This document shows positions 1,624 through 40,200 of a stretch of DNA of 64,000 nt, piece after piece. A program made the translations under genes and the position numbers. The stretch lies in NCBI GenBank assembly GCA_030068145.1, contig JAPJBO010000214.1:1-64000 (forward strand), given 5' to 3'. The notes beneath the pieces are model-generated. The model did no database searches and was not told the DNA's origin. It was given only the letters and a program-made list of their open reading frames with translations. Position 1 is the stretch's first letter, and every line of letters begins with the position of its first letter. The DNA comes from Diplonema papillatum. Lineage: Eukaryota > Euglenozoa > Diplonemea > Diplonemida > Diplonemidae.

Positions 1624-3011
1624 CTGCCCACTGCTCGCCCGTAGTAGCGACGACCTTTGTCTTCACACAACGCCGCGTAATACGATAGCCAGGTTCAAAG
1701 AGTTGGTCGGACGGCAAGCAGTTCCACCCCCCGGGTTAACGACTCCACTGCGAGTTGTTGAGACGTGAAGCTTCAAACAGCTTAGATGGTCTATTTTCAA
1801 ATACCGGCCTTCTCTAAAGGTTTACACTGCGCGCGTGCAACCCCGACAAACGACTTCGCAGAACCCCACGAAGAGGGTCCACCTACGCAGCTGTGAAAGA
1901 GTACGGCGCGCTTACCGACATGTCCTTCGATGACATTGTCAAGACGTGTTCTCTGGCTGCATGTTCTCGTGGAAGATCTGAATCCTCTACCCGAGTACGG
2001 CACAACGAACAAAACGAAGCGCCTGGTTGGAATCCGACCTCTTGCGTACCACTGCGACACGACCTCAAATTCTGTTGCCGAACAGGCAAAGACCGCACAT
2101 CGGGAGCTGGCCCCCAATGTGTTTGGCGGAAGACGCCTGAAGGCGGATGAAGGAGGAAGGCGAGTAACGGCACTGGACTCGACGCACACGACCGAGCGGA
2201 CGAGGTTAAAGCACGTGCTATTCCCGACTTTCTGCCTTCCTTCGTTCCTGTCTCCCTTTTAACCTTTCCTTTTCCGTGCTGATTCAGCAGAGTGAGGAGC
2301 CGAGTTCATTTACACACCCTGGTGTGCCCTCGCTGGCATTTTCAGTTTCTCCCTTTCGTTTCTCTCCGTGTCTGGTACATTTGAAGTCTCTCCATCCTGC
2401 CTCGGCTTTCATTTGCGCGAAGTTACTAGTTGCGATCGGGACGACACACGGCAAGCAGCAGATGTAGCAACCTGTCCTACGAGAATTGTGCATACCTATC
2501 TCCCATCACTTTGTGCGTCTGTCAGCTCGTTGCAACTGTTTGATGACAAGCGTGCTTGCTACCAGTCCTACCACCAGGCTATGAAAATAGGATCGAGTCT
2601 GCAGCCACTCAGGTTTGTCGCAGCACGAGGAGATCGCGTCACACGGATGACACTTTGCGCGATGTCAGAGTTCCGACGTAACTCGCAACACTGTTGCCCC
2701 GGCCACACCACAAGTCTGTGATTCCAAAATCAAATTTAGCTGAACCACCGACGTCTTAGAATACGACTCAGTCTAAAACATGAAGCACGCGTGTAGATAA
2801 TTGGCTCGATGGAGCGAGGGCACACCTTGAAGCTCAAGGCCTTGTCTATGGCATGTTTTGCTTTCAACGGCATCCCCCAGGCTGTTGGTGAACGTGGCGC
2901 AAGTGCCCGGTGTGGGCCCGGTGCCTGGGCAAGCTCATCGATCTCCCCCCCCGTTTCTATTTCTGCAGACTGGAAAGAAGCGCGGCAAGTCGCAGAAAAC
3001 GCGAAATAGTA
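1624..3011. other. Intergenic stretch with a doubtful small spliced ORF
   Basis: No family is recognisable. One speculative model starts at the ATG at 1785, splices a short GT-AG intron (about 1818-1890), and continues in frame as AVKEYGALTDMSFDDIVKT to a stop near 2150. A second overlapping frame at 1930-2262 also looks somewhat protein-like. Neither has homology I can name, so this is recorded as a possibility only. Just before the next gene, a strong pyrimidine tract followed by CAG (acceptor at 2967-2968) lies 43 nt upstream of its ATG, suggesting a 5'-UTR splice or trans-splice acceptor. Confidence 0.3.
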
Positions 3012-4016
3012 ATGGCCGGACACGGCGACGCTCACGAGAAGGATCGCCAGACCGAGAAACCCTTCCCAAAGAAGGGCGGCCCCGAGCCCAAGCATCCCGC
3101 GTCCTCTACGATGAAGACCGCCATGGCGACCACGTTCAACCTGCCCCCGGAGTTCCAGACCGGCAGCGTGCTTGTCGTCGGACTGGGGGGCGGCTGCGAC
3201 GCTATTACTGCTTATGTGGTAGCGCAACAGTTGTTGGCGGGCGTTGCCAGTGGGAAAGTGTTGTGGGGCAATACGAAGCGAACCCGAAAACGCAACGAGA
3301 GCGGTGGTGTCGATAGCTATGAGGGCGCCGTTAGCCTAACGCCCGGCGGGAGAATCTTAAAAGTCGTGCGCTCCGCCCCGATCGAGACGGGGCGAAACTA
3401 CTACGGGACGGTTGGGATTGACCAGTCCATCCCAAAGGGGCCCCACGGCTGCCCATTCATCCTCATCGTGCCCCGCGTTGAACCCGGTGGTACCGTGGAG
3501 GAGAATGAGCTCAAGCACCTGGCCGCAGAAATCAGGGCCCTCCAATTTGTGGATGCCATCATCGGAGTTGACGCTGGGGGTGATAGCCTGACGGGCGGCA
3601 TCGACCACCACGGGGACCCATCAACCGGTGTAGACCAGATGTGCCTGCGGGCCCTCAAGTATACCGGCCTCCCCCTCATCCACTGCGTTCCTGGCTTCGG
3701 CAGTGATGGCGAGAGCACCGTAGATCAGATCGAAGTCGTTCTCAAAGAAAAGACTGCCGACAAGACCTACATGGGATGTCTCTCCATGGCCAACTGGTCA
3801 ACCATGTTCCGGACGATGGCCAGCGGACTTGACGCTACCAGAACTCCGCATATCATGGCCGACGCCATCGACCGCCTTAATAACAACGAGCATTCACATT
3901 CGAGCGTCGACAAAGAGAGGCTGGCATGCCTCGTTGTTCCCCGTGGCATCGAACCTGCCGTTCCTATCGAGCTGCTATCCCGCGCTTACTTCATGTCCTG
4001 CACTCCACACGCGTAG
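3012..4016 (+). CDS. DUF1152-like protein
   Basis: Single-exon ORF of 334 residues. It resembles the DUF1152 family, whose biochemical role is not established. The visible family-like feature is a glycine-rich nucleotide-binding-type motif near residues 54-68 (VLVVGLGGGCDAITAYV). This is followed by an alternating beta/alpha pattern, with DAIIGVDAGGDSL (about residues 178-190) and LIHCVPGFGSDGE (about 220-232). The N-terminal 40 residues are Lys/Pro/Glu-rich and probably disordered. I chose the ATG at 3012 because the reading frame upstream of it carries no other ATG and runs into a pyrimidine tract and CAG. A second start at 3111 (MKTAMATTFN) is possible and would remove the disordered leader. 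No transmembrane segment or clear targeting peptide is seen. The DUF1152 assignment is from motif memory, not a search. Confidence 0.75.
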   Translation: MAGHGDAHEKDRQTEKPFPKKGGPEPKHPASSTMKTAMATTFNLPPEFQTGSVLVVGLGGGCDAITAYVVAQQLLAGVASGKVLWGNTKRTRKRNESGGVDSYEGAVSLTPGGRILKVVRSAPIETGRNYYGTVGIDQSIPKGPHGCPFILIVPRVEPGGTVEENELKHLAAEIRALQFVDAIIGVDAGGDSLTGGIDHHGDPSTGVDQMCLRALKYTGLPLIHCVPGFGSDGESTVDQIEVVLKEKTADKTYMGCLSMANWSTMFRTMASGLDATRTPHIMADAIDRLNNNEHSHSSVDKERLACLVVPRGIEPAVPIELLSRAYFMSCTPHA

Positions 4017-25343: not shown

Positions 25344-25425
25344 TGAACCAACCACACCCTGGAGGCTGTGTGAAGTTCTCTGATCGACTTTTCGTGGTGC
25401 ATCAACTCCCTCAGTGAAACTGTGA
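25344..25425 (+). repeat. Dispersed repeat shared with 54898-54985
   Basis: CTTTGAACCAACCACACCCT, GGCTGTG, GAAGTTCTCT and CATCAACTCCCTCAG recur in the same order and spacing at 54898-54985, with about 10 percent divergence. Here it lies directly before the retroelement ORF, so it may be part of that element's untranslated region, with the second copy a solo remnant. Confidence 0.65.
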
Positions 25426-28181
25426 CCTGTTTTCGGCGTGGTCGGCGTCAGTTCGTGTCGTTGGGAGAGCTGTTGCTGCGGGAACTGCGCATCGAGTTCG
25501 TGTGCGCCCGCGACGGGTTCTCGCGGAAGGAGTTCCGGATGCGGTTGCAGCTGGAGAGCGAGGATGCGCTGGACAGGGCCGTGGCTGAGCTCTGGTTGGA
25601 TCGTCGGAAGATGGGCAGCGCACCGCCGTCCGAGGAGAGGCGGCCCAGGAGGAGGAAGCGCATCCCCCCGGCGATACGGCGCCGGCGCAAGCGCGACCAG
25701 TGCGAGGCAGGGGCGCCTCCGCAGCAGCCGAACCCATCGGGGGCTCCCCTCCTCCCTCCCCGAACAATCAACAACAACCCAACCACCCCCACGGGATTGG
25801 TCAATGACGAGCACCGGCAACGCAACGCCGCATCGTCTGACTCCCGTGGGATCCGTTCAACTACCCGAGCTTCCCCGAACGAAGGGGAACCCCCAGCGCA
25901 GCGACTCAGCCTGGACCCAGGTCCGCAGAGCGACGCAGCGCGAGGCCCCGCAGGCGCAACGACCTGCGGTTACGCAGCGCAAGACGTCGGCCACAGCGGT
26001 CGTGTCGGGTGTGACAACCCATGCCCCGATGTGCTGCGACCCGGTCCGGTTGGTAGTTTCCCGTCAGGGGGACACGTGGCGTGCTCAAGCAATGCGCTGC
26101 GACCCGGCCCGGAGGAGGACCTTTTGGGGGCGAGACGTCTCGCAGTGGGCGGATGGAGTCCTGCCCTCGGGATGGCACCCGGGGTGGTAGATGGGCTAGG
26201 CCCGCTTTTGCCGCCAATCCCTGTGCAACCAGGAGTAACTCAGCTAGGTGTCACGGGGTTCGCTCCTTCTGTTTTTGACATATGGGAGGTCGGCGCTCCT
26301 TTTCCTTCTTCTGAGCTAGCCTTTGCAGAGGGAGCGCCTTCTCCGGAGGGTTTTTTCCCCTTGGCCTCCGCACTTCAGAGCGTCCCGGAGTTCAGGGTTG
26401 CTGATCTGCTGCCCGTCGAGGAGTTGCCCGCTCCGCCAGCCATGCCCGGCGCTGGGTTTACAGCTTTGCCGCCGCACGTGAAGGGGGATTGTCTAGCTCC
26501 GCTGAGCGACGTGGTGGGCCGTCGGGTCCACGGCTTTACCAGACGCGCGCACAACACGCGCATTCCACAGTCGCAGGCGGAAAAGGAGGCACCTCTCCAC
26601 GTGGCGGCGGTGCCGGCCATGGACACCGCAGCGCTCCGGCACAGGATGCGACCCGACGTTCGCGCCAGATTCGACTCAGTCTGGAAAGCCACGTTTTTCC
26701 CCGTCCGGGATGTTCAAGGAGAAAACGCGTCCGAGGGCCAGCAGAGGAGGAGTCACCTCATGCACTCCCACGCTTCCGAGCTCGTGCGGCTAGGCATTGC
26801 GTCACCCTCCGACACGCCGGGCACTTTCCGCAACGTGCCTTTCACGGTCGTGGAGGACAAGGCGGGCCGCCTGCGCCAGCGGTTTATTTTGTGGACGCAG
26901 GAGGCCAACGACTTGCTGAGCCGCCAGGGCTACGTGGCCCAGGTACCATTGGGTCATGTCTCGGAGTATCTTGACGTAGTCGAGTCGGAGTGCGCCACAA
27001 CGCGTGATTTGCGTTGTGGCTTTTATCAAGTAGAGGTCCCGGAGGAGGCTCGAGAGAACTTCGGATTCCTCGATGAACAAGGCAATGCCTACGTCCTAAA
27101 TAGGCTGCCAATGGGACACTCGTGTGCACCAGAGCTGATGCACACGCTAACAGCTGTGTTAGCAAGTCACCCAGACTTCGTTGGGCCTGAATTCACGGCC
27201 GACGGTGTGACAGTCCATGTCTGGGTGGACAATATTCGTTTTTGTGGGTCCCGTGCCGCAGTGCTCTGCCAGACCGAGAAACTCGATCGGCTGGCCGCAC
27301 GGGCACATGCTTCTTGGAAGCCCGAGGATAGTAACGACGCTTCCTCGGGTTATGATTTTATAGGGGTCACTTTTGACCACGGTCGGAAGACCGTCTCTCC
27401 GGCGGCTCGCCTGATCGAAAAGATCCGGGCCGTCGATCTCTCTAGCCCCACCGCCGGCGATTTAGAATCGCTCGGCGGTCGTCTGCTCCATGCGAGCGCA
27501 GTCGTGAATGCGTTCCCCGGCTCGTTCTGGTTCGCCGTCAAGTTCTTGCGACGGATAACGAACAGCCTCAACAAGGGAACTCGCACGCAATCAGAGACTG
27601 TGCCTGTGCCGGCCTCCGTACGGAGAGATCTGCGATCGTGGATCGATTCGGTCGATGTGAGCAGAAAGTTCACGCGCCCGTCCACGAATCGCCCGTACGC
27701 GGTCTACGTAGACGCGTCACTGCAGGGGTGGGGTGCTGTCCTGGTCGACCGGCAGACAGCAGAATTGACTGTGTTGGGTGGTACATGGACCGAGCAGGAA
27801 GCTTGGCACCACATCAACACACTCGAAGCACTGGCTCTGAAGAGAGCGGTGGATGCGCTACCCCCGTCAGTATCAGGGAGCGTGGTCGACGTCCATGTCG
27901 ACAACACGACCGTGGTCGGGGTGGCGCGAAAGAAAAACTGCATGTTGAACAAGTCATTGAATGACGCAGTTGTGCACGCGTTGACCCGACTACGGGATTT
28001 GAAATGTTCCTGGTCCATCTCGTGGATCAGCACGAAGGAAAACCCGGCCGATGTCCCTTCAAGAGTTGCCCTTGCCGCTGACGCCTCGGAAGAGGATCGA
28101 CAGCGACTTTTACTTGCGGTGAGGGCATTCTTTACTCGCGAGGGGGCAGGTGGCGTGACGTCGTCCCGGCGGCGATCATAG
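25374..28181 (+). CDS. Retroelement polyprotein: reverse transcriptase and RNase H
   Basis: Open frame of about 930 codons. No ATG occurs before residue 39 (counting from the GTG at 25422), so the start is uncertain. The first 430 residues are Pro/Arg/Gly-rich with no motif. The reverse transcriptase (about 440-740) shows the TFRNVPFTVVEDKAGRLRQ fingers, the first catalytic Asp in TRDLRCGFYQVEV (D529), LPMGHSCAPE, and a YxDD-box region reading VHVWVDNIRF. D603 is present but the next residue is Asn (N604). RNase H follows with D764 (VYVDASLQGWGAVL), E802 (INTLEALAL), D827 (VHVDNT) and the ending KENPADVPSR (D877). No protease, integrase or tyrosine recombinase is present in the frame. The RT/RNase H layout is closest to DIRS/YR and LTR-type elements. 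The VDN box may mean a dead enzyme or a lineage variant. Confidence 0.85.
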   Translation, partial: SSLIDFSWCINSLSETVTCFRRGRRQFVSLGELLLRELRIEFVCARDGFSRKEFRMRLQLESEDALDRAVAELWLDRRKMGSAPPSEERRPRRRKRIPPAIRRRRKRDQCEAGAPPQQPNPSGAPLLPPRTINNNPTTPTGLVNDEHRQRNAASSDSRGIRSTTRASPNEGEPPAQRLSLDPGPQSDAARGPAGATTCGYAAQDVGHSGRVGCDNPCPDVLRPGPVGSFPSGGHVACSSNALRPGPEEDLLGARRLAVGGWSPALGMAPGVVDGLGPLLPPIPVQPGVTQLGVTGFAPSVFDIWEVGAPFPSSELAFAEGAPSPEGFFPLASALQSVPEFRVADLLPVEELPAPPAMPGAGFTALPPHVKGDCLAPLSDVVGRRVHGFTRRAHNTRIPQSQAEKEAPLHVAAVPAMDTAALRHRMRPDVRARFDSVWKATFFPVRDVQGENASEGQQRRSHLMHSHASELVRLGIASPSDTPGTFRNVPFTVVEDKAGRLRQRFILWTQEANDLLSRQGYVAQVPLGHVSEYLDVVESECATTRDLRCGFYQVEVPEEARENFGFLDEQGNAYVLNRLPMGHSCAPELMHTLTAVLASHPDFVGPEFTADGVTVHVWVDNIRFCGSRAAVLCQTEKLDRLAARAHASWKPEDSNDASSGYDFIGVTFDHGRKTVSPAARLIEKIRAVDLSSPTAGDLESLGGRLLHASAVVNAFPGSFWFAVKFLRRITNSLNKGTRTQSETVPVPASVRRDLRSWIDSVDVSRKFTRPSTNRPYAVYVDASLQGWGAVLVDRQTAELTVLGGTWTEQEAWHHINTLEALALKRAVDALPPSVSGSVVDVHVDNTTVVGVARKKNCMLNKSLNDAVVHALTRLRDLKCSWSISWISTKENPADVPSRVALAADASEEDRQRLLLAVRAFFTREGAGGVTSSRRRS

Positions 28182-28546
28182 CTTGCCTCATGGTCGGTGT
28201 TCCCCTTCGTTTGTTATGTGAGTATCCTGACTGGTGACCTTTTACCGTTCTCTTTCAACTGGAGTGGCCACGGCGGAACCCGTCAAGTGGGAGAACCCAC
28301 CAACAGACGAACGCAGGAAGGAGCTCAGGCCGAAGTTTGTAGAGCATCTGTGAAGTAGGTGCGAGAACAGGCAAACCTTGTGCGCTAGCTTCGTTCAACC
28401 GTGAATCAATAAGCAGGGCCTACCCCACATTCTCACTGTCATTTGAGAGAGAGAGAGCGCTGCCAGAGGAACGCCAGCCGAACAACGGCTGCAGACCCCG
28501 CCTCAGAACGAGTGCGATGATGCCAGAAGAAGCCAGCAACAATTCC

Positions 28547-28735
28547 CTCTAAAAGCTTGTTTTCGAAGTGGGACAACCTCTAAAAGCTTGTTTTCGAGGT
28601 GGGACAGCCTCTAAAAGTTTGTTTTCGAAGTGGGACGACCTCTAAAAGCTTGTTTTCGAGGTGGGACAACCTCTAAAAGCTTGTTTTCGAAGTGGGACAA
28701 CCTCTAAAAGCTTGTTATCGTGGTGGGACAATTGC
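28547..28735 (+). repeat. 31-bp tandem array 1 (TE tail)
   Basis: About six units beginning CTCTAAAAGCTTGTTTTCGA and ending GTGGGACAAC, with AGTG/GGTG alternation. It ends at ATTGCAGTTTAC. The same unit forms the 29687-29965 array. It differs in sequence from the large 31-bp array at 12.7-16.5 kb. Confidence 0.95.
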
Positions 28736-28920
28736 AGTTTACTGAGGGAATAGGAGCAAGACGCATGGCTAGATGAGCACGACCACCTCGAATCGACACC
28801 CGGAGAATTCGGGTGGAGCGGGCTTCTACAACTAGTAATATTCCGGCAAAAGGTAGCACTCCTCAACTAGCCCGAACCAACAGGATCAAAGAATGTCAGC
28901 CACACCTTCCCGATTATTTT

Positions 28921-29097
28921 GAGCGCGTTGGCCCGATTACGGGAGTTGAATTGTTTTTGGTCCATCTCTTGGATCAGCACGAAGGAGAACCCGGCCGATG
29001 TCCCTTCGAGAGTCGCCCTTGCTGCCGATGCCTCGGATGAGGATAGCACAACTGTTACTGGCGGTAAGGGCTTTCTTTACTCGCGAGGGGGCTGGTG
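28921..29097 (+). pseudogene. RNase H C-terminal fragment
   Basis: Diverged copy of the end of the RT/RNase H frame (ARLRELNCFWSISWISTKENPADVPSRVALAADAS...), about 85 percent like 27985-28160. The upstream part is replaced by block X, so it is a truncated fragment. Confidence 0.85.
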
Positions 29098-29686
29098 GCG
29101 TGACGTAGTCCCGGCGGCAGTCATAGCCTCATGGTCGGTGTTGTTCCCCTTCGTTTGTTTGTAAGTATCCGCTTTGGGTTCACCATTTGTTTGAGATGGA
29201 GATGCACGAGCCCTACCGGAGGAAGGGGCCAACAAAAGCCCCACAGAGCCAGCAGTGCGTGAGGCCAGAAGACGCCAGCTCCAATTCTTGCAGTTTACTG
29301 AGGGAATAGGAGCAAGACGCATGGCTAGATGAGCACGACCACCTCGAATCGACACCCGGAGAATTCGGGTGGAGCTGGCTTCTACAACTAGTAATATTCC
29401 GGCAAAAGGTAGCACTCCTCAACTAGCCCGAACCAACAGGATCAAAGAATGTCAGTCACACCTTCCCGATTATTTTTCCCACCCTCCATCCCCCGCGTGA
29501 CGTAGTCCCGGCGGCAGTCATAGCCTCATGGTCGGTGTTGTTCCCCTTCGTTTGTTTGTAAGTATCCGCTTTGGTTTCACCATTTGTTTGAGATGGAGAT
29601 GCACGAGCCCTACCGGAGGAAGGGGCCAACAAAAGCCCCACAGAGCCAGCAGTGCGTGAGGCCAGAAGACGCCAGCTCCAATTCCC

Positions 29687-29965
29687 TCTAAAAGCCTGTT
29701 TTCGAAGTGGGACAACCTCTAACAGTTTGTTTTTGAAGTGGGACAACCTCTAAAAGCTTGTTTTCGAGGTGGGACAACCTCTAAAAGTTTGTTTTCGAAG
29801 TGGGACAACCTCTAAAAGTTTGTTTTTGAAGTGGGACAACCTCTAAAAGCTTGTTTTCGAGGTGGGACAACCTCTAAAAGTTTGTTTTCGAAGTGGGACA
29901 ACCTCTGAAAGTTTGTTTTCGAAGTGGGACAACCTCTAAAACCTTGTTTTTGAAGTGGGACAATT
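29687..29965 (+). repeat. 31-bp tandem array 2 (TE tail)
   Basis: About nine units of the same CTCTAAAAG.TTGTTTT.GA repeat as at 28547-28735. It is also followed by ATTGCAGTTTAC, so array and flank were duplicated together. Confidence 0.95.
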
Positions 29966-29994
29966 GCAGTTTACGATGGGAATAGTCGCCAGCA

Positions 29995-30183
29995 ATGGAG
30001 GCCCAATACGCACACACTACCTACCCCAGGTACTTGTGGGTGGCCTGGGTGGGTGAAGTCTACTCAACATTCTCATGCCCGCCCTCCCTTGCCCCCGGTG
30101 ACGTCGTCGTTGCGGTGGATTCCTATCCCCCAACTGGCGAGTCTTTCTATCCCTTCCGCAAGTTGTACGTTGCAAAATGCTGG
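29995..30183 (+). pseudogene. ORF fragment cut by YR retrotransposon insertion
   Basis: The ATG at 29995 opens a frame MEAQYAHTTYPRYLWVAWVGEVYSTFSC...VVVAVDSYPPTGESFYPFRKLYVAKCW. It is protein-like in composition but of no known family. At 30184 the sequence becomes the 346-bp terminal repeat of the minus-strand YR element, so the frame is interrupted there. The right flank at 36526 does not obviously continue it. Confidence 0.4.
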
Positions 30184-30529
30184 TTAAATTGCCTCCTTGG
30201 AGAGAGTCACTCGGAGCCGTTGTTCCTTCTCCATCCGCCAATTTAACATCCGTTTAATTCATGTCACACCAATCAAAGGATCATTCACGGTTAGCTCTCC
30301 TTAGCTGGCTTGCTGGTACCTTGGGAACGAGCTGACCGGCGAAGTTGGCTGCCCGGCGGCTGCCTCAGTTGGGGAGATCGGTCCTCCTGGCTACCGAATC
30401 AGTCAGCCAAGACTCCAGCTCAACTGGCGAAGGCCCGAGTTGGCTTCAATCTAACACAACTGGCTGCGGCGGGCCGGCTCACGATGCCTGGCTGCTCGCA
30501 TTCGCCTCGCGGGACTCTGGGATTTTCCC
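30184..30529 (-). repeat. Split direct repeat B2 (346 bp), element terminus
   Basis: Identical by eye to 32080-32425. It begins TTAAATTGCCTCCTTGG and ends GGGACTCTGGGATTTTCCC in plus orientation. It forms the 3' terminus of the minus-strand element. Confidence 0.92.
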
Positions 30530-30645
30530 TCCGCCGGTCAAGCTCAGCAAGCCAGGGAGACTAACCTTGATCCACTGCGGGGGAGTGGGGAGAGAGGGAA
30601 GGGTGGGACGCAGGGAGCTTCATACGAACCCCGAGGAGGACCGAC

Positions 30646-32005
30646 CTACGAGGGCGCGGCGTAGCAGTGAGCTAGGCTCACCGGGTTGTAAAACCGGACC
30701 GCCTCCACGCAATACGGATCGCGCGTGAGCTTCTTTCCGTACAACCTCACCATGTCCTCCGACGCCCAGTCCCCCAGCTCGCAAACCTGCATCACCCCCG
30801 TCCCCGCCTTCAGCAGCGTGCAGCAACCACCCTGGCGCTGTGTGTCGTGTACGCGAGCCTGCTCCCTGGACTCCTCCCGGCTGACATCCCGTTAATGTCG
30901 GCGAAGAGACCCCGCCTTGTCCTTGTACCGCAGAGTGCCTCCCTGAATGAGCGGTACCCGCAGTTGGGGCACAGGAGCTGACTTGACCCGGCCAAGCGCT
31001 TCAGGAGGGTGGACACCTCGACTGGGAGCGGATGGAGGACGGTGCTCCCTCCGGCGGGTCGGAAAGCGTAGGCGGAGGCACCAAGTTTATGGCCTCGAAC
31101 GTCAAGGATCTCATGCATTCCCTTTTGCCCTTCGCCATGCGCCACTCGACCCTGAGCCTTCCTCCATTCAGAGTGACGTCCTCCGCCCGGATCACCCGCA
31201 TACTCGAAGTTCTGAGTAGCGTAATAAATTCGCCCAGAATCTGCAGGGCAGCGCCGCAGTCGCCCGTGGTCCGGATGGCATCAAAGATCGCCCTGAACTC
31301 CTTCACGCCCAGCGGCTCCGCCTGCTGTGGGTCCGGCGACTCCAGGACGGCCATCATCCTACCCACGATATTCAGCGGGTCATCAAGAACACACCCCGCG
31401 GCTTTGTTCTCCGCCAGCACGGACGCTATGATGCTCTGGGGCGCCCTATAAGCTGCACCGTCGTCGCCCATCAGCAGCAGGTGACCGCCGAACTCCTCCA
31501 ACCTCTCTACCGTGGTTGGGTAGGGCTCAACGCCCATGCTACCACACCACGACACGTACCCGGCCGTGTTCGAGTCGTATGTGGCCTTCGAGCCGACCGT
31601 CGTGTAACGGGCCCGCATGGCCCTGCGGGCCACCTCGGCCGAGTTCCGACCGAGGGGCCTCTTAAGCGCTGCCCTCTGCGGAGTCCATCTCCTTGCTCGC
31701 TGACCAGGCGGAGACCGGGGCGGTGTGTCCTTGACACCGTCCCCGCCTGGGGCGGGACCCCGTTCGCGGGGCCCCGCTCCTAGCTCTGCCACCATGCTGC
31801 GAAAGCGCTTGTCGACTTCCTCGGCCGGCCGCGGCTCGGGAAGCGCCCAGCACGGCAACACACGGAAGGAGGTCAGGGACATGCCCTCTGGCAGCTCCGC
31901 GACCAGAGCCTCCCACTCGGGGTCCGTGAAACCCGTCCTCATGCCGTCTAACCGTGCAACATCCCATGTCATTATTTTCTTCGGGTGGGCGGGCGGGAGA
32001 AACAA
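30646..32005 (-). pseudogene. Tyrosine recombinase of YR element, frameshifted
   Basis: The N-terminal part (32005-31001) is a clean frame: an SAM-like DNA-binding domain (YDSNTAGYVSWCGSMGVEP...ERLEEFGGHLL), then the catalytic-core start (LGVKEFRAIFDAI...FITLLRTSSMRVIRAEDV), where the box-I Arg is expected. Near 31030 the homology moves to a second frame (PVEVSTLLKRLAGSSQLLCPNCGYR). Near 30835 it moves to a third. The box-II motif THSAR is in one frame and its continuation QGGCCTLLKAGTGVMQVCEL in the next. It then runs LGDWASEDMVRLYGKK, whose Tyr is the likely nucleophile, to a TAG at 30646. The complete R...HxxR...W...Y set is present, so the protein was a real recombinase broken by two frameshifts, or the shifts are sequencing errors. 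Confidence 0.8.
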
Positions 32006-32080
32006 ATGACTGATCCGGTTTGGTGGAGATCCGCGCTCCTGCCGGGGCTTTGCTCGGGATTAGCTGAATTAAACACCTAT
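31998..32080 (-). repeat. Split direct repeat A2 (83 bp)
   Basis: Identical by eye to 36443-36525 (AGAAACAAATGACTGATCCG ... GAATTAAACACCTAT). It abuts B1, sharing the T at 32080. Confidence 0.92.
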
Positions 32081-32425
32081 TAAATTGCCTCCTTGGAGAG
32101 AGTCACTCGGAGCCGTTGTTCCTTCTCCATCCGCCAATTTAACATCCGTTTAATTCATGTCACACCAATCAAAGGATCATTCACGGTTAGCTCTCCTTAG
32201 CTGGCTTGCTGGTACCTTGGGAACGAGCTGACCGGCGAAGTTGGCTGCCCGGCGGCTGCCTCAGTTGGGGAGATCGGTCCTCCTGGCTACCGAATCAGTC
32301 AGCCAAGACTCCAGCTCAACTGGCGAAGGCCCGAGTTGGCTTCAATCTAACACAACTGGCTGCGGCGGGCCGGCTCACGATGCCTGGCTGCTCGCATTCG
32401 CCTCGCGGGACTCTGGGATTTTCCC
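32080..32425 (-). repeat. Split direct repeat B1 (346 bp)
   Basis: Internal copy of the 30184-30529 terminus. It is fused to A2 to give the circular-junction-like B1A2 block of YR retrotransposons. Confidence 0.92.
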
Positions 32426-32581
32426 AATGGCTCTATCCCAATGGACCGACGCAAAAGAGAAGAGAAGCCAAAGATCAGCGCGCAAGAATCAGCCGCCTAC
32501 GGCACGGATGTGCACTGGAGGGTACCCGGGACCAAGAAATCTGCCACCGCCTCATCAATCGTCTGAAGGCTAGGCACCCGC

Positions 32582-34242
32582 CTAACCGGGCACCGCCCAC
32601 GGAACACTGGCCAAGGACTGGGCGAGGCGGCTTGGAAGGTCCGCGATGTTCATCTCGCTTGAAACTCTCTCAAACCATACGCGAGCCTTCGCCCTGGCAA
32701 TGCCTTGCCACAACCTGTGGACAGGGGCAAGCAGCATCCCAGCCCTGGACTGACCCTGGACAACGCCCGTCATCTCTTTGAACCACAGACCGAACGCCAC
32801 CGACACGGCTGCGAACTCCAAAGCGTGAATCGGCAGCCCGGACGCCCTGGCAGGAACCGGGCAAGAGTAGTACTCGACAGACGACACCACGCCGTCCGTA
32901 AGAACAACAAGGACGGCGCCCAGCCCCTTTGGGCAGGCATCCGTGAACAGGACGCACTTGGTCCCCGTATCCGGACTCACCGAGGGGAACCGACTTTTCA
33001 AAGACACGGACCTCACTCCTCAGGACGTCAACCCACCACCGGAGCGATACGCAAAGCTCGCGACCCAGCTTGAAGTCCCGGTACGTGGACGACGCATTGG
33101 CGCGCCTGAATCGAGATTGGAGAGGTGCCCTACCCACCTTGCGGAATAGGGAGGACGAGGCGGACCCTAGTTTCCCGGCGCGACGCCGCCTCGCCCGGTG
33201 CGAGCGAGTCGCGAGCGAGAACGCCCTCCAGAACGAACACCAGTTTCTCCTTCCGTGGTTCCGACAGGGAAACGTGCACACCCTCCCCGTCTATCGAGAA
33301 AATCAAGCCCAGGTGCCGAAAGCTGTTGCCCTGTGAGGTCTTTTCGTCGTTGAAAGAGGTGCGCAAAATGCCGCCCAGCAGCTCTAAGGTGTCAGCGAGC
33401 ACTAGGTTGTCCTCCAGCCGGCAGGGACAGGCGAAGTCGTCGTAGTACTGCAGGAGCGGCAGCGACAGGCCGCGACGGACGACGCGGGCGAGGACCTTCG
33501 CAAGGCGTTGTAGTGTACAACGCTTGCCGCCTCGCCAAACGACAGACGGTCGAGCCTGAAAAATTGCAACAGTCCGTCCGGGTCCTCCGCCACCACGCAC
33601 CTGCAGATTACATCGTTCTGCGCCTTCATCTGCCTGTAGGCGTCACGATGGTCCAAACCTACTGAGTAGAAGGCCGCCCCGGCAAACCTACCGGAGGCCT
33701 GTTGGGCCAGTTGCCGCGCCACCCCCACGGAAACGTCGACGGTGTCCAGCTTGACCTTCGTCGCATGTGGACCGCCTTATTAACCAGGGCCATACGCCCG
33801 TCATCGCACGCGCGGAGCTTCGTCTGCCACCCCGGGGACCCCGCTTCTTCGTCTTGATGATAGGGGTCTGATAAGACCACGATGAGAGAGTCGATGATTA
33901 TGATGACCAGCCTGATACGCTGGCGGGAAAACAGGAAGCTCGGGCGACAGCGCCCTGCCGCCCTCGGTTCATTTTCCACCTCCTGCCGGAGTCGACAAAG
34001 GCTTGTAGTCGTCTCAAGCCCTTCCTTGCCGGCCCGCTGTCAACTCTGTTCCTAAACCCACCGACCTGCGGCCAGCCGGTGGGAGAGAACACCGGACCCT
34101 TCGACGCCACAACTAGGGTGAGCTGGAGCTCGCCGAGGACATCGGTGTCCAGCTTCAGCAGGCGGTCACACGCGGCCCCTAGTGTCACCGGACCCATCAA
34201 GCCAACCTCGGCACGACCATCCCAATACTGAGCGAGCGTCAT
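32582..34242 (-). pseudogene. Reverse transcriptase/RNase H of YR element, frameshifted
   Basis: The ATG at 34242 opens a frame (MTLAQYWDGRAEVGLMGPVT...) to 33898. RT motifs then appear in other frames: GLDHRDAYRQMKAQND with FRLDRLSFGEAASVVHYN (33728-33510), then LSLPLLQYYDDFACPC (33475-33430, an intact YxDD box) and FRHLGLIFSIDGEGVHVS. The RNase H part (FKLGRELCVSLRWWVDVLRSE, then CVLFTDACPKGLGAVLVVLT, ALEFAAVSV, SSEMNIADLPSR) spans 33100-32600 in two frames. At least three frame changes separate intact catalytic motifs. All key acidic residues remain. Together with the recombinase downstream this is the DIRS/PAT/Ngaro gene set. The retained YYDD contrasts with the VDN of the neighbouring retroelement, so the two belong to different lineages. 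Confidence 0.8.
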
Positions 34243-34258
34243 GTCATCTTCCCCCCTT

Positions 34259-34345
34259 TGTCTCCCGTTTCAAGCTGAAGACGAGAGGTTGAAGGCCGTC
34301 TCCCGTTTTAAGCTGAAGACGAGAGGTTGAAGGCCGTCCCGGCGC
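34259..34345 (-). repeat. Tandem duplication of about 40 bp
   Basis: Two copies of GTCTCCCGTTT.AAGCTGAAGA...GGTTGAAGGCC, one base different, within the YR element leader. Confidence 0.85.
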
Positions 34346-34400
34346 CCAGATAAAACAAGTACACACGTCCGCGACGGGCGCCCACCCGCCTGACCAATCT

Positions 34401-34449
34401 GACGCGTCCGCGATCGGGCGCATGCCATGCGCCCGATCGCGGACGCGTC
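34401..34449. repeat. Perfect 24-bp-arm palindrome
   Basis: Left arm 34401-34424 (GACGCGTCCGCGATCGGGCG + CATG), a single C spacer at 34425, then the exact reverse complement at 34426-34449. It sits at the boundary of the 85-bp satellite inside the YR element. A stem this perfect is often an initiation, pausing or recombination structure. Its function here is unknown. Confidence 0.92.
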
Positions 34450-36190
34450 TCCCGGACACATCTCAAACCAAGCGAGCTGCACGCCGTGCACGTGGCACGG
34501 CGGATGGTAGCCGAAGCGAGCTGCACGTCATCGAGGTCAGACGGACCTCAACCAAGCGAGCTGCACGCCGTGCACATGACACGGCGGATCGCAGCCAAAG
34601 CGAGCTGCACGTCATCGAGGCCAGACGGATCTCAAACCAAGCGAGCTGCACGCCATGCACGTGGCACGGCGGATCTCAGCCAAAGCGAGCTGCACGTCAT
34701 CGAGGCCAGACGGATCTCAAACCAAGCGAGCTGCACGCCATGCACATGGCACGGCGGATCTCAGCCAAGCGAGCTGCACGTCATCGAGGCCAGACGGATC
34801 TCAAACCAAGCGAGCTGCACGCCATGCACGTGGCACGGCGGATCTCAGCCAAAGCGAGCTGCACGTCATCGAGGCCAGACGGATCTCAAACCAAGCGAGC
34901 TGCACGCCGTGCACGTGGCACGGCGGATCTCAGCCAAAGCGAGCTGCACGTCATCGAGGCCAGACGGATCTCAAACCAAGCGAGCTGCACGCCATGCACG
35001 TGGCACGGCGGATCTCAGCCAAAGCGAGCTGCACGTCATCGAGGCCAGACGGATCTCAAACCAAGCGAGCTGCACGCCGTGCACATGGCACGGCGGATCT
35101 CAGCCAAAGCGAGCTGCACGTCATCGAGGCCAGACGGATCTCAAACCAAGCGAGCTGCACGCCATGCACGTGGCACGGCGGATCTCAGCCAAAGCGAGCT
35201 GCACGTCATCGAGGCCAGACGGATCTCAAACCAAGCGAGCTGCACGCCATGCACGTGGCACGGCGGATCTCAGCCAAAGCGAGCTGCACGTCATCGAGGC
35301 CAGACGGATCTCAAACCAAGCGAGCTGCACGCCATGCACGTGGCACGGCGGATCTCAGCCAAAGCGAGCTGCACGTCATCGAGGCCAGACGGATCTCAAA
35401 CCAAGCGAGCTGCACGCCATGCACGTGGCACGGCGGATCTCAGCCAAAGCGAGCTGCACGTCATCGAGGCCAGACGGATCTCAAACCAAGCGAGCTGCAC
35501 GCCGTGCACGTGGCACGGCGGATCTCAGCCAAAGCGAGCTGCACGTCATCGAGGCCAGACGGATCTCAAACCAAGCGAGCTGCACGCCATGCACGTGGCA
35601 CGGCGGATCTCAGCCAAAGCGAGCTGCACGTCATCGAGGCCAGACGGATCTCAAACCAAGCGAGCTGCACGCCGTGCACGTGGCACGGCGGATCTCAGCC
35701 AAAGCGAGCTGCACGTCATCGAGGCCAGACGGATCTCAAACCAAGCGAGCTGCACGCCATGCACGTGGCACGGCGGATCTCAGCCAAAGCGAGCTGCACG
35801 TCATCGAGGCCAGACGGATCTCAAACCAAGCGAGCTGCACGCCATGCACGTGGCACGGCGGATCTCAGCCAAGCGAGCTGCACGTCATCGAGGCCAGACG
35901 GATCTCAAACCAAGCGAGCTGCACGCCATGCACGTGGCACGGCGGATCTCAGCCAAAGCGAGCTGCACGTCATCGAGGCCAGACGGATCTCAAACCAAGC
36001 GAGCTGCACGCCGTGCACGTGGCACGGCGGATCTCAGCCAAAGCGAGCTGCACGTCATCGAGGCCAGACGGATCTCAAACCAAGCGAGCTGCACGCCGTG
36101 CACGTGGCACGGCGAATCTCAGCCAAAGCGAGCTGCACGTCAGCGACCAGGCGAGGCGAGCTGCCGCCGAGCGCGGCGGACCTCAGCCAA
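34450..36190. repeat. 85-bp satellite inside the YR element
   Basis: About 20 units of 85 bp built from CAAGCGAGCTGCACGCCATG, CACGTGGCACGGCGGATCTC, and AGCGAGCTGCACGTCATCGA with GGCCAGACGGAT. Units differ mainly at CCATGC/CCGTGC and CACGTGG/CACATGG; two units lack one A (CAAGC for CAAAGC). Because 85 is not a multiple of 3 and the unit has no plus-strand stop, all three plus frames stay open for 600-700 codons, giving spurious proteins. Confidence 0.95.
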
Positions 36191-36442
36191 GCGAGTCTCG
36201 TCATGATAAGGCGCTGGCCAGGCACCACACGAATATCCACGGCTTGCACGTCAAGTACTGGACAGGACGGATCTCAGCTGGAACAGCTGCACCGTCGATC
36301 GGCGTGCGACGACCCCCCCTCAGGTGGGCCGCGCCTCGCACCTCAGGCATCAGCCTGGCATGCCCCCCCTGCATGCTTTGCTACACGGGTATTCAGTCCC
36401 GGCGAGCAGTGGCAGGGCGCTCTCCAGCCAAACGAGTTGAAC

Positions 36443-36525
36443 AGAAACAAATGACTGATCCGGTTTGGTGGAGATCCGCGCTCCTGCCGGGGCTTTGCTC
36501 GGGATTAGCTGAATTAAACACCTAT
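36443..36525 (-). repeat. Split direct repeat A1 (83 bp), element 5' terminus
   Basis: Terminal copy of the 31998-32080 repeat. It defines the right-hand edge of the YR element. Confidence 0.92.
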
Positions 36526-37248
36526 TTTAATAGCTTCCTCTTCCCTTCTTCTTGATTCGGTTCGGCAGAAGCGATCATGCAAGTTGTGCGAAAAAGGCCG
36601 AGGTGCTCAAGCGACAATTCCCTCTAAATCCTGTCTTCCTTCTTCTTTTTTGCACCAGTGTGATGAACTTTCCTGTGCTCCTTTTGGTCTTTCTGAGCCC
36701 AAAACGCCTCAAAAAAATATTTTCGCGCCTGCGGCGCGTTCTATCTCAGTCTACCTGGTAGTACCAGTAGGTCAGGTGAAAAACCGCGCCGTGCGTGGCA
36801 AACTATGCCGTGCGGCCAAGAGGGGGGGGGGGGTCGGTAAACAATGTTTACCAAAATGTTTTTTACACCTTCCCCTGCTTTGTAGGAAATACTTGAGGAG
36901 GCTGCCAGCTGCAAAAGATCAAAGGAGGTAAATGTGCTGTAGCAGTGGCGGGCGTAAGCGTTCAACAAAGACCCATTTTGTAGTTGTATTGTTTCTCCCC
37001 CTTTAGCCTCCTTCGAAGTAAGCACAAGGCAGCCGCTCGAGTATTTTCTAAACCCCCGGGAACAGAGAGACTGGGGACACCCGCGCTCATAGCATCAAGG
37101 ATTGGTCGATTTAGTGGCACCTTTGGTGACTGTATGCGCTGCCATGGGGCGGTCATTCTTGAATGAAACTACTAAATCTACTACCCTTTGCCAAACGCCC
37201 TTTGCAACTAGAGCGACACCGAATCGTAACCACCTGCGACTTACACAG
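36526..37248. other. Region between YR element and coiled-coil/AT-hook gene
   Basis: Contains a small ORF-like stretch with a hydrophobic segment (36552-36761), a G-run (36823-36834), and a copy of a dispersed repeat (36874-36966). No upstream exon of the following gene could be fixed, although its exon at 37249 must be preceded by one ending in phase 1. Confidence 0.4.
36874..36966 (+). repeat. CCTGCTTTGTAGGAAAT dispersed repeat, uninterrupted copy
   Basis: Landmarks are CCTGCTTTGTAGGAAATACT, TGAGGAGGCTGCCAG, AAAGGAGGTAAATGTGCTGT and CAGTGGCGGGCGTAAGCGTT. Related copies are at 57638-57681 (first half), 58415-58658 (interrupted by a 70-bp tandem duplication), and a beginning at 58667. It is non-coding and about 93 bp. 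Confidence 0.75.
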
Positions 37249-40200
37249 GGCCCATTCCCGCGCCGGAAGTGGTGGCGTTGGTTGAAGAGCTCAGCTTGTT
37301 GAAGGAGGAGCTCGCCGCTGCCGAGAAGAGCCTCAAGTCGATTGAAGGGCTGAAGGCTGCGAGCCAAAAGGCTCTCGAAGCCGCGGAGAAGGAGCGGGAC
37401 ACCGTCCAAGACCAGCTGCAAACCGTGTCCTCGGAGCTGGCGGCGGCGCGCGAAGCGTGCACGGCGAAGGCGCTCGAAGCCGAGAAGGAGAGGAACGACG
37501 CGGTCCAGCAGACCGCCGACAAAATCGCGGAGCTGCGCAAGGACATCGCCGCGCAGCAGACGTCCGCCGAGTCCTTCAGCCGTCAGGCGCAGGAGCTCGA
37601 CAGCGAGCTGCAGTCGCTCGCACTCACCGCCGACATGAAGGCCGTCGTCGAAGATCACCTGAACGCGGCCAAACGTACGCTTTGACCAATTTCTGCACAA
37701 GAACAGGATCCAATTCAACGAGCGACGTCCCGGCCACCTTGAGTCTGCTCTCGGTTCAGTCGTCCTGCTATGCAGCTCTGTCCCACTTCTACATCAGCGG
37801 TTTAGCAGCCAGCTGATGCCCGTTTGAAGTTAGAGAAAGCCGATAACGTAGCAGCTTCGGAGAGCGGCTCGGGCCACGCTCGGTTCTGCGAAGAAACGAG
37901 CTATCTCGAATACAGGCGATATCAGCGTCCGTACAGTTTTCGTGCATGCGGGCCTCCATCGTGTTTGCGTGTGTTCGTTGTCGACCGGTGATATTGCTTG
38001 ATCTGAATGGGGGCTGTTCCTTTCCCCGCTGCCCGTCTTCGGCCCGGCTTCCAGCGCCACCCCGCGAATGCATCAACCAAGGGTGACATACGCCGCCTCA
38101 CGTCCCGGAGCCGTCGACATTTTGATGTGAGGAGCCGGCATCGGGGCTGTTGCCCGCTGCATGCTCCGTGTGTATTCGAGTGCCGCCGAAAACACGATAA
38201 CCCCAAACTCCCTCAATACAGTGAGCGAAGCGGAGGCCGACAAGGAGGAAGCCGTCCTCCAGCAGTTGACTGCAAAGTTCGCGGAAGAGGTCGCCAAGGC
38301 GAAGGAAGGCGTCAAGGAACGGTACGCGCGTTTTTTTTTGCGTGCTAGCAATGCAGTTATTGGTACCAGGAGTCGGTAGTTGACAGCGTCTACATGCAAC
38401 TTGCCTGCACAGCCAAGACGTTCCCTGACTGAGGGATGTCCCATGTAGACTGGCTGTTCATGATTGCTGTGTCCAATCGCTTCTTGACCTTTCCACGGGT
38501 TACGCTCTCGCACGGACAAAAAAATACACTTCAGGAAACAAGCCATCACCGCTGAACGAGCCGCCATGAAGAAGGTTGTGGCTCAAATTAAAGCACTCGG
38601 TGGTGGTATGTCTTTGCCTTTCGGTTAGCTGCAGAGTGAAGGATACAATCCATCGACCATGAGGTAGTCTATGCACTAAACCCCCCTCTCGCATATAATT
38701 TACATTTTTGGGGTCCAAAAAATGTAAATTATATACGGTATGTAAATTATACACGAGTTTGGGCCCCTATGTAAATAATACGCGAGATTCACTTCGTGGT
38801 GTATATAATTTACATTACGAGGCGCTTACACAGACCCCTTACAGGGCTAGAACACCGCACAAAGGGGCGGGGATGGCTGAACTAAAGGCACTGCAGACAG
38901 CAGCCTTGGAGGAGCTGCGTCTCCAGAATGAGGCAAGCGAGTTCGTTGTTGTCGGGTCCGAAAGTGGAAGCGAGTTCTCCGAGCTTGAAGACGATCCCGG
39001 GGCTGTAAGCACAGACGGGGGCTCCGACGGTGACGTGGCTTCGTTCGCCGGCGGAGACGACGACGGCACAGACGAGGAAGGTGAAGGCAAGGAAGACGAA
39101 GATGGGAATAAAGCTGAGGAGAGCGACTCTGGTGATGGGGACCCGGAGGAAGAGGGTGGTGCACCGCCTGCTGCAAAGAAGGTGAAGCTGGAACGTGGGG
39201 TTGCTAAGAGGGCGAACAGGAGAACAACATGCCTCGAGTCCAAGGGCAAGATTGTCCGGAAGTTCGACGAACTGGTGGTCGCAGTGGCGGAGAGGGAGGC
39301 GGCAAAGCCAGAGGCAACAAGGAAGAACCCGAATTCGCAGAGTCGTGAGGTGATGAGCTCGCTGCGGAGTTGGGCAAAGGAAAACGTGGACAACGGTGCC
39401 ACAACCATCCACAACCGCAGCCAGGTTGAAAGCTTCCGGAAGGCTGTGACATCGTCCAGGGGTAGCGGCTCTCTACGCGTGAAGCGCAGAATGAGGCACA
39501 GGAAGACGCTCTTCCCGCTTGTTGAGGCATGCCTGAAGGTGTTTGTCGTAGAGAAGCGCAAAGACAATCGGAAAGTGACACTGCAGACGTTGAAGACGCA
39601 AGCGGAGGCTCTCCTCCAGGACGATGAGGTGTCTGCCCTCTGCAGGAACGTGAGGAGTGTCTCCACAACGTACCTGCGAAACTTCCTGAGCAGGAACCGC
39701 TTTCGAGTCAAAGTGGTGCAGAAGCAGACCCCCTTTACGCGGGATGACATCTGTGCGAAAGCACAGGTGTTCCACACACACCTCCACCACGTTCTCCCCC
39801 ATGTCACCCCTTCTTCTATTTTTAAAAAGCGAGAACATCATCATCACCCCTCGTTTTTGAGTCAGCAATGGAAAGTCTTTCTGCAGTGTTCCCCCCTTTG
39901 TTCTGACTTCACTCCGATGCGCATCTTAGAGAGACGTGGAGCTGAAACACGAAGGCACAGCTGCCACACCTGCTGACCTTCCCTGCATGGCTTGTTTGTC
40001 CCCGGGAAAAATGAAAAAACCGTATGTAAATTATAGAAAAATGTAAATTATATGCGAGTTTGGCGTAAAATGTAAATTATATACGGTATGTAAATTATAT
40101 GCGGATGTAAATTATATGCAGGGGGGGGGTTTACGTCGTGGTTACACCATGGAACGATAGCACTGTAGGTGGTCCTGCAGAAATGGCTCGGGATCAGTAG

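Follow-up and report, generated by a model that had tools for sequence, protein, structure and literature searches.

The 64,000-nucleotide stretch of Diplonema papillatum DNA analysed here (contig JAPJBO010000214.1 of assembly GCA_030068145.1, positions 1 to 64,000; hereafter the window) contains a tyrosine recombinase (YR) retrotransposon with split direct repeats, in which the genes for reverse transcriptase (RT), RNase H (RH) and YR are broken by frame changes. We consider it very probable (about 0.87) that this element is a defective, non-autonomous member of its family that was mobilised in trans by unbroken relatives. Mobilisation in trans of an already defective copy had been one of several possibilities raised by an earlier, sequence-only reading of the window, and comparison with other genomic copies strongly supports it: 16 of the 40 RT/RH places scored, counting the window, agree to the letter across 1,201 bp and have their breaks in common, and sister copies carry the same genes unbroken. 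Copy counts are lower bounds throughout, the best 40 candidates having been scored in each DNA search of a draft assembly of 271 Mb in 2,910 contigs.

Organization of the element and its repeats

The window has about 56% G+C on average. On its minus strand, the modules of the element follow one another in the order A1, 85-bp array, RT/RNase H, B1A2, YR and B2:

30184-36524, minus: whole YR retrotransposon, delimited by the repeat pairs, the A edges of other copies and empty sites
36525..36594, minus: left target flank, ending in GCTATTAAAA
36443..36524, minus: A1, terminal repeat at the left end, 82 bp (84 bp in common with A2 when the two preceding A bases are counted), from the repeat search, the edges of other copies and the empty site
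34460..36146, minus: tandem array of an 85-bp unit, located between A1 and the coding region, 19.9 copies, 97% matches
33181..33847, minus: what is left of RT, in several frames, with YYDD
32500..33176, minus: last part of RT, then what is left of RNase H (Pfam RT_RNaseH), in other frames again; 15 residues including VDNN are absent
32080..32425, minus: B1, internal copy of B, 346 bp
31998..32079, minus: A2, internal copy of A, adjoining B1; the YR open frame starts inside A2
30649..32059, minus: YR, in three frames, same orientation as RT
30184..30529, minus: B2, right terminal repeat, 346 bp, from the repeat search and the empty site
30114..30183, minus: right target flank, beginning with CCAGCATTTTG

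Both repeat pairs are identical, with neither mismatches nor indels, over 84 bp for A (31998-32081 and 36443-36526) and 346 bp for B (30184-30529 and 32080-32425), as the sequence-only reading had claimed, and other copies and empty sites place them at the ends of the element. Since the two bases preceding A1 equal those preceding A2, the A edge was set from other copies: in 38 of the 39 that were fetched it starts with TAGGTG or TGGGTG, the exception being the degenerate C663. The true edge thus lies at 36524 and 32079, giving an A repeat of 82 bp instead of the 83 bp first proposed and an element end at 36524 instead of 36525. Because both repeat pairs are identical, a recent insertion of the window copy is supported.

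The 85-bp array was also seen in copies of two related subfamilies, S1 (copy L070) and the sister subfamily S2 (copy L069). Because its unit carries no stops, the array is open for more than 600 aa in all three plus-strand frames (34317-36555).

Frame changes and losses in the window copy

Frames were mapped by tblastn with the proteins of the unbroken sister copy L069 as queries. The RT/RH frame changes near 33764, 33500, 33180, 32980-32920 and 32600, and the YR frame near 31030 and 30840, so that RT, RNase H and recombinase each change frame, as had been noticed from the letters. Among the frameshift points listed at that time, those at 33515, 31030 and 30835 fit these changes and that at 33100 falls between two of them, and the list was incomplete, lacking the changes near 33764, 32950 and 32600. 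The catalytic motifs had been thought to be all kept; the window copy does have YYDD, THSAR and the recombinase Tyr region, in different frames, but the RNase H lacks a 15-residue stretch of the sister that includes VDNN, whose D we take to be the third acidic residue of RNase H. The start of RT is missing as well, with no tblastn match in the window copy to the first 213 of the 682 residues of the sister RT/RH frame. Introns were considered as the cause of the frame changes and dropped; the sister copies are unbroken at those places.

All 25 loci of the window subfamily (W), among 30 RT loci, match the L069 proteins in several frames, and among the 30 YR loci no read-through of the full 478-residue YR was found outside S2. 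An RT-start loss of equal extent occurs in C19 (L024) alone among the 25 W loci, in 20 of which residues 44 to 90, 136 or 144 are still matched.

Copies with shared breaks and unbroken relatives

The A-side flank was examined for 13 of the 16 identical copies, namely the window and 12 that were fetched; the 12 have no significant BLAST match to one another, and the window flank differs from them by eye. The YR search returned 46 rows (40 scored places), including three copies identical over 1,061 bp, two of which, C1724 and C2595, have nearly the same flank (1,041 of 1,047 bases). Mean divergence over about 1 kb was 0.14% within W, 1.4% between W and S1 and 2.6% between W and S2, calculated from 24 W loci, one S2 sequence and six S1 sequences from five places, L070 and L037 being the same place and both used.

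The sequence-only reading had suggested a genome search for uninterrupted open reading frames (ORFs), and these were found in S2. In ten rows of this subfamily the RT frame is open over 481-717 aa, and YR is unbroken over 478 aa in six of the 30 YR loci (C1854, C731, C612, C427, C2552 and C2050), five of which also have an open RT/RH end. One flank is common to C1854, C2552 and C2050, and those of C1854, C731, C612 and C427 are mutually different. The S2 repeats are 98.8-100% (B) and 98.8% (A) identical to those of the window. More distant families, at 58-69% identity, include many rows with RT frames of about 710 aa; dN/dS between one S2 and one distant-family copy was 0.12 for RT/RH, with synonymous sites near saturation.

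In S1, open frames of 353-383 aa occur in 12 of 15 rows. At the break near 33180, a 41-base stretch is identical in all 25 W loci and all six S1 sequences, and it is absent from L069, the one S2 copy tested; RNase H residues 576-654 are missing in four of the six S1 sequences (L036-L038 and L070). The presence of the same breaks in copies at different loci therefore indicates that the breaks predate amplification, at two levels. Since S1 carries one RT break letter for letter and also multiplied, the lineage would have lost its genes stepwise.

Alternative explanations for the frame changes

Sequencing error and programmed shifting, both raised by the sequence-only reading, are unlikely. That the shifts are indel errors is conceivable in a draft assembly of 2,910 contigs, and repeats are hard to polish; however, breaks common to many copies speak against sequencing error, being the same in 16 copies that agree letter for letter, of which 13 have examined and differing flanks, and longer stretches have also been lost, whereas sister copies are unbroken within the same assembly. 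We thus give the artefact very little credence. Programmed ribosomal frameshifting joining the RT, RNase H and YR frames would agree with the changes being common to the W loci examined and with the catalytic motifs lying in successive frames, but it appears slightly less credible still, because the sister copies are open without shifts at those places; it would further require seven changes and would not restore what RT and RNase H have lost. Least credible of all is a functional copy that broke after insertion: both repeat pairs are still identical, as this would allow, but independent insertions carry the same lesions, which must therefore predate insertion, and the only nearly private lesion is the larger RT-start loss, found in C19 too.

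Insertion sites

The joined flanks of the window element (140 bp) match 15 of 41 listed rows at equal length and 99% identity, and in the two empty sites inspected base by base (L110 and L111) the sequence runs through the join. Empty sites of equal length mean that target bases were neither duplicated nor removed on insertion. Beside the A edge the flanks are rich in A and T: at each of the last five positions before A (-5 to -1), 35 to 39 of the 40 flanks have one of these two bases, with A at -2 in 34 of 40, and right flanks have T at +7 in 12 of 20 and at +8 in 13 of 20. These counts take in flanks from all three subfamilies, with no shuffled control, and exclude C2160 (which has the C2007 flank) and C663 (which has no edge). 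The B/A junction of the element itself reads CAATTTAA on the B side and TAGGTGTTT on the A side.

The target is itself repeated. Sequences matching the flanks (30114-30183 and 36525-36594) occur as paired empty sites 316 bp apart on C713, C507, C269 and C20, and also on C762; the window element is therefore nested in another repeat family. An 18S rDNA target was also considered for L058, L062 and L063, whose flank is 18S-like over about 40 bases, but Rfam gave nothing at gathering scores, and the 1,056-bp flank read by eye is not rDNA, so this reading was abandoned. In L058, the 40 or so bases lie in the flank after B2, at the insertion site, and resemble the 18S V4 region within non-rDNA sequence. 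Insertion without target duplication is described for DIRS1-like elements (PMC3266345, in excerpt).

Probable mobilisation in trans

The RNA of a defective copy would be copied and circularised by proteins from an unbroken relative, and the internal B1A2 block could be used to rebuild the element ends. The YR of the relative would then recombine the circle, at its B/A junction, with a target resembling that junction, a step that the target pattern and the junction of the element itself would fit.

Several observations weigh against this explanation. Some copies may be haplotype duplicates, since flanks are shared within C1854/C2552/C2050, C2007/C2160 and C1724/C2595, and polishing of the assembly could have hidden real differences between repeat copies. 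Among the six S2 loci with an unbroken YR, L058 (C1854) alone shows a change of frame in RNase H. The window pieces compared with S2 gave dN/dS of 0.38 (RT/RH) and 0.35 (YR), not 1, although these values come from a small number of substitutions and take in the branch of the sister as well. Finally, one distant-family copy has an open RT/RH and an apparently broken YR, so the donor need not be S2.

In that distant-family copy (L115), RT/RH is open over 712 aa and the YR, apparently broken and short, sits between two identical B repeats of at least 176 bp. It may be another element needing YR in trans.

Substitutions are more frequent in the terminal B than in internal B1 or the remaining sequence. 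Compared with the window copy, the terminal B of 17 copies has 19 substituted bases in 5,882, against 13 in 33,723 elsewhere in the same copies, or 15 against 9 when shared variants are counted once by hand (Fisher test); C666 was excluded because its B2 is truncated, and C52, with a further A after the B scored as terminal, was kept. A control on the A1 side, with four copies only and 908 bases, gave one private difference and one common to two copies, a difference at position 1 of C997 falling in the flank. The excess in terminal B could stem from errors made when the ends are formed or from polishing of the assembly, and we do not build on it because polishing that homogenises interior sequence could cause it.

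Single-module copies

Some copies contain only one of the two coding modules. Five of the 30 RT loci are A-RT-B copies, with other DNA directly after the B edge and without A2-YR (L015 on C535, L017 on C231, L019 on C195, L028 on C792 and L029 on C501); L031, cut inside B, and L035 and L036, which reach a contig end, were not scored as such. Two of the 30 YR loci, L052 (C528) and L064 (C525), are A-YR-B copies with no B1 ahead of A, and L055, without A and B1, was taken as truncated. The C528 copy lies inside a repeat, as its uninterrupted site was found in 40 of 40 rows, with about 100 of the 140 bases matching at 91-94% and spanning the join; the three empty sites that were read differ by one base at the join. 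Larger arrangements also occur: C52 has a further A-YR after B2 and, by eye, B2 adjoins a diverged A in C1724 and C2595, which are possibly one insertion.

On balance we favour the view that single-module copies arose by simple deletion, through homologous recombination of B1 with B2 or of A1 with A2, and that they are comparable to solo long terminal repeats (LTRs) and not separately mobile. This process would produce single-module and tandem forms, and the A-RT-B copy C792 has a deletion and a substitution in common with the two-module C1724 and therefore derives from a two-module lineage. The B2 joined to a diverged A in C1724 and C2595 argues in the other direction, suggesting that a B edge can link up with a different A edge, although the weight of these copies is limited by their common flank. 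Among the papers listed in literature searches on split direct repeats and on solo or non-autonomous forms, no title or abstract opening describes single-module copies; the nearest case, which also agrees with homologous recombination, is that of the solo AB repeats reported for Ngaro of Cafeteria (PMC8547959, in excerpt).

A more tentative, rather improbable interpretation is that the element consists of tandem A...B cassettes, A1-RT/RH-B1 and a Crypton-like A2-YR-B2, joined exactly at a B/A recombination site; the recombinase could split them or add another, and each would integrate alone, supplied in trans. If this were true, the split direct repeats would be the visible scar of a co-integrate, and the meeting of a recombinase transposon and a retroelement would be explained. 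Independent mobility of the cassettes is only possible, because homologous recombination would yield the same forms and C792 shares the deletion with C1724.

Classification

The element combines RT/RNase H and a tyrosine recombinase and is thus a YR retrotransposon (order DIRS). In a sister copy, Pfam matches to RT_RNaseH (1.3e-06) and Phage_integrase (1.9e-07) were above the cut-off and that to RVT_1 (0.02) was below it. The split direct repeats A1, B1A2 and B2 are of the PAT type. In one sister copy, Pfam found no methyltransferase (MT) in the upstream, RT/RH or YR ORFs and no zinc finger in the first of these, a putative Gag of 434 aa; in both L069 and the distant-family L115, the RT/RH frame stops a short distance before B.

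The array is reminiscent of TOC1 of Chlamydomonas, an element reportedly described by Day et al. in 1988, in which the terminal repeats are split and a 76-bp unit is repeated in tandem inside the element; the array unit is 85 bp here, and the repeat lengths differ.

Comparison with other systems relies on excerpts of PMC4157794 unless stated otherwise. The recombinase between A2 and B2, which the sequence-only reading had considered worth comparing, is confirmed but not new, since nematode-form PAT elements have internal repeats between the RT ORF and a co-oriented YR, as here, and internal repeats also precede the YR in Kangaroo (Volvox). However, PAT is defined with an MT, and none was found in the sister copy, so the window family looks built like PAT but is not filed as a member. 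It may differ from nematode-form, Pat1-like elements in lacking MT and zinc finger, neither of which Pfam found in the sister copy, although one Pat1 lineage is reported to have lost the MT, and the layout features are called homoplasious. By description only, it can be likened to the PAT-type Toc3 of algae, whose YR is not inverted and whose Gag is given as lacking a zinc finger, again with the difference that PAT elements are defined with an MT. Ngaro elements, such as those of Cafeteria burkhardae, are described as having no MT and as having split direct repeats, with solo AB repeats (also PMC8547959, in excerpt), but their internal repeats follow the YR (A1-ORFs-B1A2B2), whereas here the YR lies between A2 and B2. 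In Kangaroo the YR is inverted, whereas here it shares the minus strand with RT. The inverted terminal repeats of DIRS1-like elements were not found either, with no inverted repeat pairs of at least 25 bp within 28000-38500.

Neighbouring sequence in the window

Another retroelement lies at 25422-28181 (plus strand), a 919-aa open frame with RT_RNaseH (2.8e-06) that is weakly like the sister's RT/RH. The core of its RT presumably has VWVDN at the usual YxDD position, and on its 3′ side there are duplicated blocks and two 31-bp arrays (28546-28731 and 29685-29963). Further plus-strand open frames contain DUF1152 (5.9e-12; 2910-4016) and HTH_Tnp_Tc5 (1.1e-05; 38708-39976).

Significance

A lineage of YR retrotransposons has thus gone on spreading despite decay at two levels or more, seen in S1 and in the window subfamily, and close relatives retain the genes. 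Models for end rebuilding and target choice of split-direct-repeat elements have already been proposed (PMC6681497, in excerpt). D. papillatum offers a good natural test case for both processes in these elements, since its genome holds letter-identical copies with defects, relatives whose genes are unbroken, exact empty sites, and copies with a single module.

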